From an uncultured Bdellovibrio sp. (GTDB taxonomy: Bacteria > Bdellovibrionota > Bdellovibrionia > Bdellovibrionales > Bdellovibrionaceae), in NCBI GenBank assembly GCA_946482355.1, contig CAMLRE010000145.1, positions 1-6,079 on the forward strand: 6,079 bases of DNA. The letters run 5' to 3'. Shown in pieces: positions 3,604 to 5,827 of this stretch; within the stretch, counting starts at the first letter, position 1, and each line of letters starts with the position of its first letter. The notes under the pieces were generated by a model. The model worked only from the letters and a program-made list of their open reading frames with translations. It was not told where the DNA came from and did not search any database. The translations under genes were made by a program, and so were the position numbers.

Positions 3604-4455
3604 ATGAACAAAGCCGTTATATTTAAAGCCTTACAAAGATCGTTAGGATTCCGCAATCCGGAATCTATTCTTGAAATAACCTCTGACTTAACCGCTAAGC
3701 TTTTGCCGCAAGAACTGCTGCTGGCTGAACGTTATCTTTTATCGCTTCGTGATAAAGGGATTAAGTACACTTATCCGGGCCATGAAGCCTATCCGCAAAG
3801 TTTCTATAAAATGTTAGAGCCACCGCTTTTCTTAGAGTACTTAGGAGAGCCCGTGTGGCTGCATCATGAGGTGTTGGCTATTGTGGGGTCGCGAAAGATG
3901 CATTCATTCACGCAAAGGTGGTTACAGCAAGAAATACCCGCGTTTTTAGAAGCTAAGCCCAATGTGGCCATTGCCAGCGGTGGGGCTATGGGTGTGGATC
4001 AGTGCGCACATTGGGTTGCGGTTAAAACATCAAGGCCTACGATTGTGGTGCTTCCGTGCGGCATTGAGAATTTGTTTCCGCAGAATTTAAACAAACTTAA
4101 AAAATATATTTTAGAAAGTGGCGGTTGTTTTCTCTCTGAGTTTGAGATTGAACAGCAGGTCAGAAAACATTTTTTCTTTTTTCGTAATCGTTTAATTACG
4201 AATTTATCTTCAGTCACAATGATTGCGCAGGCTGAAAGAAAGAGTGGAAGTTTTCTAACTGTTCATCACGCTCTTCAAAATGGGCGTATGATGGTGACTT
4301 TACCGGCGCATCCGGAGATGTCTGACTTCTCGGGAAACCTGCATTTGATGCGAGAAGGATGTTTTTATGTGCTTACAAACAAGGATTTGCTTAACTTTTG
4401 GGAGGCTGAATCTTGGTCTGGTCGAGGTTTAACACTAGATATGGGCCGTATTTAG
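3604..4455 (+). CDS. dprA: DNA processing protein DprA (short form)
   Basis: DprA (Smf) is a cytoplasmic protein that binds incoming single-stranded DNA during transformation and loads RecA. The 283-residue product shows the Rossmann-fold domain in order: AIVGSR (92-97), ASGGAMGVDQCAH (124-136), PCGIENLFPQN (151-161), LSEF (177-180), FRNRLI (193-198), SGSFLTVHHAL (214-224) and NLHLMREG (245-252). The usual Arg/Lys of SGxARGxD is Met129. The N-terminal 80 residues fit the helical (SAM-like) region. It is shorter than typical DprA (about 330-380 residues): it ends soon after the Rossmann fold and lacks an obvious C-terminal winged-helix domain. ATG 3604 is the earliest possible start, since an in-frame TAA lies at 3598. 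There is no Shine-Dalgarno, and a hairpin abuts the start. It is the third gene of the operon, 45 nt after the LysM gene. The family call is secure. Confidence 0.93.
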   Translation: MNKAVIFKALQRSLGFRNPESILEITSDLTAKLLPQELLLAERYLLSLRDKGIKYTYPGHEAYPQSFYKMLEPPLFLEYLGEPVWLHHEVLAIVGSRKMHSFTQRWLQQEIPAFLEAKPNVAIASGGAMGVDQCAHWVAVKTSRPTIVVLPCGIENLFPQNLNKLKKYILESGGCFLSEFEIEQQVRKHFFFFRNRLITNLSSVTMIAQAERKSGSFLTVHHALQNGRMMVTLPAHPEMSDFSGNLHLMREGCFYVLTNKDLLNFWEAESWSGRGLTLDMGRI

Positions 4456-4464
4456 TAAAAATGC

Positions 4465-4514
4465 TTGACCACTCCCACTAGGTCTAGTGACCCCTGTGAC
4501 TAAGGTCAATTTTT
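4465..4514 (+). terminator. Probable intrinsic terminator of the dprA operon, with alternative pairings
   Basis: TGACC (4488-4492) can pair with GGTCA (4504-4508), followed by ATTTTT. TTGACC (4465-4470) can instead pair with GGTCAA (4504-4509), enclosing a hairpin CACTAG-GT-CTAGTG (4476-4489). Either fold places a stem directly before the T-run at 4510-4514, only 10-50 nt past the dprA stop. Confidence 0.5.
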
Positions 4515-4546
4515 ATAAGAAAAGTGAAATAATCTAAAAAAACCTA

Positions 4547-4576
4547 TTGAGAAAAAAAGAAAGATACATCTAGAAT
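4547..4576 (+). promoter_or_regulatory. Sigma70-type promoter for the structured RNA
   Basis: TTGAGA (4547-4552) and TAGAAT (4571-4576) are 18 nt apart, each matching 5/6 of consensus. The expected start, about 7 nt downstream, is A4583 or A4584, right at the beginning of the folded element. Confidence 0.6.
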
Positions 4577-4582
4577 AAGAGT

Positions 4583-4649
4583 AAGGGAGGGGCGATGTGG
4601 TCACGGATGACCCTGGTAGTAAGGATGCTACTGCATCGTCTCGTTTTTT
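4583..4649 (+). ncRNA. Candidate small RNA, CsrA/RsmA-binding type (three-way junction ending in a U-tract)
   Basis: A GC-rich, self-complementary island sits in very AT-rich DNA. The outer stem GGGGCGATG (4589-4597) pairs with CATCGTCTC (4634-4642), nine pairs with two G-U. Hairpin 1 is GGTCA-CGGA-TGACC (4599-4612). Hairpin 2 is GTAGTA-AGGA-TGCTAC (4616-4631), six pairs with one G-U and extendable by two wobbles. GTTTTTT (4643-4649) follows directly and would terminate transcription. Both loops show ANGGA followed by UG, and a third ANGGA (AGGGA, 4584-4588) is in the single-stranded 5' end. ANGGA in hairpin loops is the recognition element of CsrA/RsmA/RsmE, and sRNAs with several copies sequester that protein. 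Hairpin 1 contains UCACGGAUGA, the core of the hcnA hairpin bound by RsmE. An sRNA is likely from promoter, fold and U-tract together; the CsrA role is inferred. The rival reading is a 44-codon ORF starting at 4595. Confidence 0.6.
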
Positions 4650-4729
4650 CTTCTAAAATAAATCCAAAAAATTTAAATCAAGAAATAAGAAAAAGAAGCA
4701 GCATTACAGTAAATGTTGCAATGAAGTAA
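4595..4729 (+). CDS. Possible 44-residue basic small protein overlapping the RNA candidate (alternative reading)
   Basis: ATG 4595 is preceded by GGGAGGGG (4585-4592), a strong Shine-Dalgarno-like run only 2-4 nt away, and the frame stays open to TAA 4727-4729. The product would have a hydrophobic/basic start (MWSRMTLVVRMLLHRLVF) and a Lys/Arg/Asn-rich tail; I recognise no family. Against it, the ribosome site and start codon lie in the left arm of a 9-bp stem, and the T-tract at 4644-4649 would end the transcript at about codon 18. The tail also runs through the lptF terminator. I consider the RNA reading more likely. Confidence 0.2.
   Translation: MWSRMTLVVRMLLHRLVFSSKINPKNLNQEIRKRSSITVNVAMK
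4680..4719 (-). terminator. Intrinsic terminator of lptF
   Basis: Read on the minus strand, GCAACATT (4719-4712) pairs with AATGCTGC (4705-4698) around a 6-nt loop, with one A/C mismatch. It is followed by a T-rich tail (TTCTTTTTCTTATTTCT, 4697-4681). It begins 11 nt past the lptF stop, as expected for a terminator facing the convergent RNA gene. Confidence 0.55.
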
Positions 4730-5827
4730 TTAAGATAATTTCTTTTGAATTTGTCTTACAGAGACCACGGCGAAGATTGCGTTCGCAATCCATGGCCCAA
4801 CATAAGGTGGAAGTTTTCCGCTGCGTGATAGGCCTTCAAACGCGATATACACCACGAAATAACCCACGATGAATCCAACTGATACCACAAAGCCAGAGTT
4901 CTTTCCTGAACGGCGTTCGTTCACCACGCCATAACCAACACCCACTAACCCGAAAATCAAGCAGGCAGCGGCTAAGGCGAAGCGTTTATGAAACTCAACC
5001 TCAAAACCGATCTTTTCGTTAGGTTTGATTTCTGGATCGTTAATACGGTTTTGTAATTCGCCGTAATTAAGCGATGGGGCTGATTTTTTACGTTCTTCGA
5101 ACTTCACCGGGTCATTCAATAAAACGTCGTAAGATTCAAAGTTAACCACAGTGTGCGCTTGGCCGCGGCGGTGAATCTGGCCGTTAAACAAACGAAGTAA
5201 AACGCTATGCCCTGGGTTATCAAGGTCAGGAATAATATGACCTTGTGGAGCGATAATTGTAAGTGGTGAAGTCGGGTTTTTATCATCGTATATAAAAAGA
5301 TCCTGAAGTAAACCTTCTTCAGAGTTTACTTTGTTGGCGTAGATCACCATATCAAAGAAACCTTCAGAGAAAGTTCCTTCTTTAATGCTGGCTGCGGCTT
5401 TTGTATTTCCTAAGTGGGTAATTAATAATTCGAACTGACGATTTCCCCAAGGGGCCACAAAGAAAGCGGTTTGTGCCGAGATCAGAGTTACTACTAAAGC
5501 TAGCACTACTGCAGGAATTAACATCGTAGATCCGTGATAGCCAGCACCTTTTAAGGCGATGATTTCTGAATCGTGAGATAAACGATTGTAAGTCATTAAC
5601 ACGGCGAATAGTAACGACATGGGTAAAATCATGGGTAAGAATGAAATACTCATATAACCCATGATGTCTAAAATAAATGAGAATTTAATCCCGTGAACCA
5701 ACACGAATTCGGTTAGACGAAGGGCTTGAAACATTAACAGGATAGAAATAAACACCAATACGCCCAGAATAAAGGTCGGCACCATTTCAGAGAGTAAATA
5801 AAAAAAGACTCGGCGTGATTTCCACAT
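4730..5827 (-). CDS. lptF: LptF/LptG family permease (lipopolysaccharide export inner-membrane subunit), LptF type
   Basis: The 365-residue protein belongs to the YjgP/YjgQ (LptF/LptG) family, whose two members form the inner-membrane part of the LptB2FG transporter that extracts lipopolysaccharide for delivery to the outer membrane. Layout is typical. Three N-terminal membrane segments lie at about 16-36, 60-80 and 102-124. The family block LPMSLLFAVLMTYNRLSHDS, continuing EIIALKGAGYH, occupies 69-98. A periplasmic beta-jellyroll-like domain spans about 125-275. EFHKRFALAAACLIFGLVGV (278-297) starts the second half, with three more segments at about 283-303, 312-330 and 343-358. The LPMSLL..RL..DSE wording is closer to LptF than LptG. 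Length is normal. No LptG partner is adjacent in the window. It is a single-gene unit convergent with the RNA candidate and divergent from the right-edge gene. ATG 5827 lacks a Shine-Dalgarno and may start a nearly leaderless mRNA. Confidence 0.9.
   Translation of the reverse strand: MWKSRRVFFYLLSEMVPTFILGVLVFISILLMFQALRLTEFVLVHGIKFSFILDIMGYMSISFLPMILPMSLLFAVLMTYNRLSHDSEIIALKGAGYHGSTMLIPAVVLALVVTLISAQTAFFVAPWGNRQFELLITHLGNTKAAASIKEGTFSEGFFDMVIYANKVNSEEGLLQDLFIYDDKNPTSPLTIIAPQGHIIPDLDNPGHSVLLRLFNGQIHRRGQAHTVVNFESYDVLLNDPVKFEERKKSAPSLNYGELQNRINDPEIKPNEKIGFEVEFHKRFALAAACLIFGLVGVGYGVVNERRSGKNSGFVVSVGFIVGYFVVYIAFEGLSRSGKLPPYVGPWIANAIFAVVSVRQIQKKLS

Follow-up and report, generated by a model that had tools for sequence, protein, structure and literature searches.

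Between dprA and lptF of a Bdellovibrio-type bacterium lies a gene for a small RNA of about 67 nt (predicted start and end 4583–4649, plus strand; covariance models R1 and R2), and comparison of its sequence with those of relatives makes it rather probable that this is a stand-alone RNA that takes up roughly one CsrA dimer and, together with the protein FliW, lifts the repression of flagellin. The parts of this reading differ in firmness: there is next to no doubt about the RNA gene and its fold, CsrA is very likely the ligand in the group to which the window belongs (the window being the whole analysed stretch of 6,079 nucleotides), and net antagonism of CsrA by the RNA is likely. Computation established the gene, its fold and loops and a promoter-like sequence, together with csrA, fliW and hairpins in flagellin leaders; comparison across relatives, rather than promoter score or folding energy, is what carries the evidence beyond chance. 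The first-pass annotation, made from the sequence of the window, had read the RNA as a sponge for CsrA, a reading that this comparison appears largely to support.

Structure and conservation of the RNA gene

The window encodes, as judged by Pfam, a ComEC fragment, a LysM protein, dprA and lptF. The RNA element sits in the gap between the last two, on which both genes converge: dprA (3604–4455, plus strand; DNA_processg_A, E = 2.4 × 10−51) lies upstream and runs parallel to the RNA, and lptF (4730–5827, minus strand; LptF_LptG, E = 2.2 × 10−83) is convergent. Relatives were gathered via LptF, giving 59 loci, mostly titled as Bdellovibrio-type organisms, of which the nearest to the window is a Pseudobdellovibrio MAG (locus L001; LptF identity 96%). 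A blastn search recovered the element from 34 of the 59 loci, where it stands behind lptF on the opposite strand, at a distance from lptF of 13–140 nt in 33 loci and 637 nt in L011; dprA stood upstream of it in 32 of the 34, the contigs of L016 and L013 ending too early. The L013 contig, titled as a Streptomyces griseus MAG, bears a Bdellovibrio-type lptF and the RNA, and its bin name looks wrong.

Folding of 4583–4655 gave a closing stem (4589–4598 with 4633–4642) around two hairpins on the plus strand: hairpin 1 (4599–4612) with hexaloop ACGGAT at 4603–4608, and hairpin 2 (4615–4632) with hexaloop AAGGAT at 4621–4626. The tightest pairing narrows these loops to CGGA and AGGA, and six T follow the closing stem (4644–4649), which confirms the fold as it was first described; the 3′ arm of the closing stem (4633–4642), defined by fold and alignment, forms an intrinsic terminator together with the T run. 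In the minimum-free-energy structure the 5′ tail (4583–4587) also pairs with the T run, whereas both are single-stranded in the centroid; the folding energy is only moderately unusual (z = −2.16; 6 of 200 shuffles fold equally well). Given 35 aligned sequences, RNAalifold returned the same 20 pairs unprompted, and standard pairs fill 98.3% of the pair cells in this 35-row alignment. Four pairs have changed on both sides, all within the two hairpins (three in hairpin 2; the outer pair of hairpin 1 occurs as G-C, C-G and A-U), a count that 5 of 500 shuffles reach. The covariation score of 0.217, against 0.160 in shuffles, was reached by none of 500; because the shuffles ignore kinship, the number of doubly changed pairs is the safer measure. 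In the closing stem, changes among the 35 sequences were one-sided only, with pairing retained, so that the compensatory changes for which the first-pass annotation had proposed searching all three stems were found in both hairpin stems and not in the closing stem.

Counted on the LptF tree of the 35 sequences, changes at the loop positions A, N, G, G, A and N number 0, 9, 0, 0, 0 and 5 in loop 1 and 0, 11, 0, 0, 0 and 7 in loop 2; the proposed invariance of the GGA loops thus holds, in both loops, for A, G, G and A throughout the 35 sequences of the window's group. ANGGA stands in both loops of 34 of the 35 (L013 lacks the N in loop 2 and keeps GGA), and the two sites lie 18 nt apart in 34 of the 35 copies. 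Among 53 further strong copies that we examined, 37 were distinct and 12 of these fell outside the 35-row alignment; all 12 distinct copies outside the model carry both ANGGA at a spacing of 18. Across 1,359,108 bases (both strands of the 59 loci, 34 of them RNA-bearing), we counted 151 ANGGAN hexaloop hairpins, and every one of the 32 pairs of neighbours no more than 30 nt apart was this RNA. A third site of the ANGGA type, AGGGA, lies in the 5′ tail (4584–4588, plus strand; GGGA in 35 of 35 sequences, the preceding A in 34), giving the 67-nt RNA two GGA sites in hairpins and one in its tail, as the annotation had counted them; no GGA was found in the 5′ tail of the 18 divergent copies used for model R2. 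The CsrA ligand has been described as ANGGAN on a stem, a pattern that these loops fit, and CANGGANG hexaloops, the form of hairpin 1 in the window, are named as high-affinity ligands in the same description (PMC4894983). CsrA is reported to bridge sites separated by 10 to 63 nt, and to do so best above 18 nt in one account (PMC7652899) and at 18 nt in another (PMC4894983). Placed 18 nt apart, the two ANGGAN hexaloops would offer one CsrA dimer both of its binding sites.

Upstream of the RNA, on the plus strand, stand a −35 hexamer TTGAGA (4547–4552) and a −10 hexamer TAGAAT (4571–4576), separated by 18 nt; this pair, already pointed out in the first-pass annotation, was recovered by a promoter scan and matches 10 of 12 consensus positions. 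The scan found 17 promoter-like sites in the window against 14.4 expected by chance, with TTGAGA/TAGAAT among the two best, so the pair taken alone means little. Across relatives, TAnnnT occurs at the −10 place (searched over 14 positions) in 30 of 35 copies in the dprA context (base shuffles: mean 13.2, maximum 20) and in 22 of the 29 divergent copies with enough upstream DNA (shuffles: mean 10.4, maximum 17). A TTG hexamer heads 20 of the 30 best pairs in the dprA context, at a spacing of 16–18, and 17 of the 22 among divergent copies; that most relocated copies keep this promoter-like sequence argues for an independent gene. On this layout, we infer that 4583–4649 would be transcribed as a small RNA from its own promoter and ended by the intrinsic terminator. 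An A-rich block (AAAAGTGAAATAATCTAAAAAAACC; 4518–4545, plus strand) lies in the window just where relatives are also A-rich; blocks of this kind (AAAAGTGAAATnnTCTnAAAAAA type) precede the −35 hexamer in dprA-context copies and resemble an UP element or curved DNA, and an UP-element-like function may be supposed.

Spread of the family across the phylum

The first-pass annotation had called the RNA an orphan, a label that has to be given up: it is a family, with one copy in each of 99 genomes (union of R1 and R2 after exclusions) among the 368 searched from the phylum. Searched against the 368 genomes at E ≤ 0.01, R1 matched 93, of which 60 were strong (E < 1 × 10−17) and 33 weak. R2, built solely from 18 divergent copies that R1 had itself found, matched 105 genomes, including all 60 of the strong R1 genomes (E = 9 × 10−11 to 1 × 10−6), a recovery that argues for one family with one copy per genome; the extra second matches of R2 within one genome were at chance level. 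Exclusions were made in two steps. Dropped first, leaving 101, were G075, G325 and G347, on R1 matches (L122, L131 and L132) that had another closing stem or were plain terminators (plain terminators in L131 and L132, doubtful in L122; G347 also had an R2 match, E = 0.0024), and G036, G053, G082, G130 and G190, for which the E-values (0.004 to 0.009) were the sole ground. The second step removed G225, a plain terminator, and G218, which has neither GGA nor GGGCGATG, bringing the count to 99. Ten of the kept genomes were reached from loci and every other one falls between G141 and G267, suggesting that the family belongs to one class.

The arm GGGCG[AG]TG (GGGCGATG or GGGCGGTG), followed by a CATCG-like stretch and a T run, is present in 30 of the 33 weak R1 copies. 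Between the arms of these 30 divergent copies there are two or more GGA in 24 and one in 6, and strict ANGGA occurs twice in only 7, making the signature looser outside the window's group; hairpin 1 of divergent copies often reads CAGGA and folds poorly. Two weak R1 copies, L103 and L113, adjoin dprA (tblastn), and dprA was not found in the flanks examined of the other weak copies (short for L100 and L123). Among nine R2-only copies, five have two GGA and two (L206 and L208) have one; L207 (in G228) and L209 (in G227) fold alike and have no loop GGA, with csrA present in both genomes. The R2-only matches L210 and L211 are not family members.

In Bdellovibrio bacteriovorus HD100 (G143), the RNA lies at 2,374,936–2,375,007 on the minus strand. 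The c-di-GMP-I aptamer of HD100 was located at 1,073,868–1,073,951 (minus strand), inside the published merRNA (1,073,741–1,074,185, reverse; PMC3627812). The position of the RNA overlaps none of the eight attack-phase-specific sRNAs in Table 2 of that paper; as the list holds only RNAs far stronger in the attack phase, it is no test of a constitutive or growth-phase RNA, and growth-phase non-coding RNAs, in the authors' words there, may exist in HD100 but could not be placed (PMC3627812). A 261-bp sRNA gene reported between bd0103 and bd0108 lies elsewhere than this RNA (PMC3818213).

CsrA as the ligand, and other readings

Of the 99 RNA-positive genomes, 96 have a csrA gene, whose presence the first-pass annotation had proposed to check; 237 of the 269 genomes counted as RNA-negative have it too (333 of 368 in all), and it is present in G003, the genome of L001 and thus of the window's nearest relative. 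The co-occurrence of csrA and RNA (Fisher P = 0.0086, ignoring kinship and assembly gaps) is weak evidence, because csrA is near-universal in the phylum. Among RNA-positive genomes, csrA was not found in G166, G210 and G240, and the csrA match of G160 was weak (E = 3.9 × 10−5). FliW was found in 317 of the 368 genomes and in 87 of the 99 RNA-positive ones; presence of csrA and of FliW was assigned to genomes by eye from match listings. Genomes G227, G228, G235, G236, G251 and G252 (1.2–2.0 Mb) have csrA and the RNA with no FliW match, assembly gaps being possible, and G227 and G228 are also the two whose RNA loops lack GGA. In G240 (L109) and G210 (L114), which gave no csrA match, the RNA copies have lost GGA in one hairpin, which may be chance, as some copies in genomes that do have csrA are also short of one GGA.

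Residues L4, R6, R44 and N55 of CsrA are kept in all 10 of the proteins examined, the first three being what we take to be RNA-binding residues. Among the CsrA relatives found is a chain named translational repressor, presumably RsmE, for which there are eight solved structures, 2jpp among them. Together with a C-terminal extension, N55 is described for the FliW-bound type of CsrA, in which it is a FliW contact (PMC13407953).

Flagellin leaders point to CsrA from the side of its putative targets. From 94 flagellin matches, 44 loci were fetched and 6 were dropped for having no recognised start, leaving 38 usable leaders in 13 genomes (a fourteenth genome was searched and gave no flagellin match). 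An ANGGAN hexaloop hairpin occurs in 22 of the 38 leaders, with 30 hairpins in total (500 shuffles: mean 0.6, maximum 4), compared with 11 of 508 background leaders, whose starts were set at the first ATG in mechanically called frames; the Fisher P value for this difference, 3 × 10−21, overstates it, since paralogous flagellin leaders are not independent. When the loop pattern was permuted in 90 ways (mean 2.3), the next best,.AGGA., reached 22 against 30 for ANGGAN, so that part of the leader signal is shared with Shine-Dalgarno-like AAGGAGG. Two of the four HD100 flagellin leaders tested have the hairpin (L142 and L148, not L140 and L150). One or two ANGGAN hairpins, often over the ribosome-binding site, were seen at flagellin loci L142, L146, L149, L162, L171, L175 and others. 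This pattern suggests that flagellin is under CsrA control in relatives of Bdellovibrio, and a ligand presented alike by the RNA and by many flagellin leaders is what a sponge needs.

The CsrA binding, titration and effect on flagellin that we infer would then run as follows. The RNA would compete for CsrA with target mRNAs, above all those of flagellins, many of which have such a hairpin in their leader, frequently covering the ribosome-binding site. When abundant, it would remove CsrA from its target mRNAs and would thereby be the RNA counterpart of FliW, the protein antagonist of CsrA for which most of these genomes have a gene. Against a sponge, a single copy with two or three sites could titrate little CsrA unless the RNA were present at very high levels, and FliW is already a CsrA antagonist elsewhere, so that there is no prior need for one.

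CsrA binding also leaves one feature unexplained, namely the 5′ arm of the closing stem (GGGGCGATGT; 4589–4598, plus strand), which has zero changes in the 35 sequences; its GGGCGATG is invariant in all 35 copies, and the partner arm varies mostly between C and T. Such constancy, retained in 30 of the 33 weak copies and going beyond the needs of pairing, would suit a base-pairing sRNA whose contact with mRNAs is made by the invariant GGGCGAUG stem or by the GGA loops, CsrA, if bound at all, only stabilising or assisting, and published findings hint at roles for CsrA in sRNA–mRNA pairing (PMC7652899). However, the loop N changes freely (9 and 11 times), which would be intolerable for a pairing seed, and the invariant arm is tied up in a strong stem leading into the terminator; we consider base pairing an unlikely main function. 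The same unexplained stem could also belong to a structured RNA made for another partner, be it a different RNA-binding protein or the ribosome (AGGA loops being Shine-Dalgarno-like), as some divergent copies have lost the loop GGA and retained the stem, and CsrA is itself a predicted ligand. Set against this are the facts that ANGGAN on a stem is the described ligand of CsrA and is seen again in the flagellin leaders of these bacteria, and that mimicry of a Shine-Dalgarno sequence would not keep an A and a free N before GGA, as the window's group does; a partner other than CsrA thus seems improbable.

Two further readings were rejected. That the element is only the terminator or 3′ untranslated region of dprA, with no function of its own, accords with its place downstream of dprA, in the same direction and with an intrinsic terminator at its end, but is very improbable given its own promoter-like sequence, found also at most copies away from dprA, an arm kept in 30 of 33 weak copies of which only two were found beside dprA in the flanking DNA examined, and invariant ANGGA loops for which a terminator has no need; the promoter-like sequence and the copies away from dprA decided the matter. 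Least credible of all is a short peptide gene overlapping the RNA (Shine-Dalgarno-like GGGAGG, ATG at 4595, MWSRMTLVV...), which could claim an invariant GGGAGGGGCGATG in 35 of 35 dprA-context copies and a frame open for 44 codons in the window, but whose frame is broken in 3 of 35 copies (by frameshifts in L012 and L013 and by a stop after a single codon in L030) and ranges from 1 to 75 codons, with a freely varying residue 7, hairpin changes that follow base pairing, no GGAGG before GATG in the 18 divergent R2 copies and no Pfam match; conservation of this frame without the stems, which the first-pass annotation had named as telling against its own reading, was thus not what the relatives revealed.

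An upstream palindrome and comparison with known regulators

A palindrome, CACTAGGTCTAGTG, lies upstream of the RNA at 4476–4489 and is an exact match to the core CACwAnnnnTwGTG, making it an NrdR-box-like candidate operator; it fits the NrdR consensus given as acaCwAtATaTwGtg (PMC4009431). With at most one mismatch, CACTAnnnnTAGTG is found in 24 of 34 loci (window included; 12 exact; shuffles: mean 0.13, maximum 2) and is missing from the other 10 loci of this dprA-context group, and of the 24 palindromes, 19 end 93–96 nt before GGGAGG, four end at 108 nt and one at 86 nt. Genome-wide, seven genomes have 1–8 exact copies each, compared with 6–14 exact sites for the same pattern read backwards. 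We examined 17 of the 26 exact sites: five are the RNA site and eight lie inside open reading frames. The box, around base 1501 in each of these loci, precedes an nrdA-like ribonucleotide reductase gene in L188, L189 and L191, and in L193 as judged by a shared neighbour gene; the three exact sites of HD100 are at the RNA, at nrdA and within a long frame. NrdR is encoded in 13 of the 14 genomes.

Tight NrdR binding is described as needing two good boxes, the partner lying 15–16 bp away (PMC12051234). A weak partner was found at offset −32, where NrdR box pairs are expected (PMC12051234), with a mean of 4.58 mismatches in 10 positions against at least 6.38 at the other offsets from −45 to −20. 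In the upstream DNA of 28 relocated weak R1 copies (260 nt; less than 160 nt for L100 and L123), 27 had no box at up to two mismatches and L115 had two sites with two mismatches, so the box belongs to the dprA-context group. These sequences make NrdR control of the RNA gene possible, with the counterpoints that two good boxes are needed, that about −95 is far for a repressor and that relocated copies have no box. We offer tentatively, as a rather doubtful extension, that an RNA antagonist and FliW might act in one cell with the RNA gene wired in many relatives to NrdR, which represses ribonucleotide reductase; this would bring dNTP or replication state into the CsrA–flagellin circuit. If this is true, the NrdR-wired RNA would help to switch the predator between a replicating growth phase and a flagellated attack phase; an operator-like palindrome common to the RNA gene and nrdA suggests a link between the supply of DNA precursors and the control of motility.

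No Rfam family matched 4583–4649 at E up to 5, nor did any match at gathering score in L089, L107, L118, L126 or L101; at that E limit the window gave just two Rfam matches, msr and SNORD22, both at chance level and outside the RNA. Phage records gave no match. The guanidine-II (mini-ykkC) riboswitch, a two-hairpin RNA with loop motif ACGR, was considered and rejected, there being no Rfam match over the element and loops that follow ANGGAN. Among the open-access literature matches listed, no title or abstract opening named a CsrA-binding RNA in this group.

The RNA resembles CsrB/CsrC and RsmX/RsmY/RsmZ in being non-coding, with GGA in hairpin loops and an expected sequestration of CsrA; CsrB/RsmZ-type sRNAs likewise end in an intrinsic terminator. 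It differs in scale, CsrB having 22 GGA by published count (PMC7652899) against two hairpin sites and one tail site in 67 nt here, and falls short of the more than four GGA sites of the CsrB/RsmZ families. It also stands apart from the gammaproteobacterial Csr sRNAs in that FliW is mostly co-resident and an NrdR-box-like palindrome lies upstream: CsrA-sequestering sRNAs are described as mainly gammaproteobacterial, where FliW is absent, FliW being thought the antagonist elsewhere (PMC7652899, PMC13407953), and control of Csr sRNAs by BarA–UvrY is reported to be anti-correlated with FliW. RsmU, RsmW and other sRNAs of Xanthomonas and Pseudomonas, described as binding or sequestering RsmA, are likened to it by description only. 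Within the same organism, merRNA of B. bacteriovorus is likewise a non-coding RNA and proposed sponge; it differs in being a 445-nt c-di-GMP riboswitch, proposed to hold c-di-GMP, with another locus and fold (PMC3627812).

With one dimer's worth of hairpin sites in 67 nt, the RNA would, if our reading is true, be a minimal sponge and useful for structural work. A 2020 review left it to be determined whether FliW and an sRNA act jointly in any species (PMC7652899); HD100, a model organism that can be cultivated, has csrA, fliW, the RNA and some hairpin-bearing flagellin leaders, so the question is directly testable there. The Campylobacter jejuni flaA leader is alike in architecture: it has two neighbouring ANGGA hexaloops at a spacing of about 20 nt (21 nt as published), belongs to a CsrA–FliW system, is reported to titrate CsrA (PMC4894983) and, as here, would probably bind one CsrA dimer. 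The flaA leader is part of a coding mRNA, whereas the RNA described here is non-coding and has a gene to itself, complete with promoter-like sequence and terminator.
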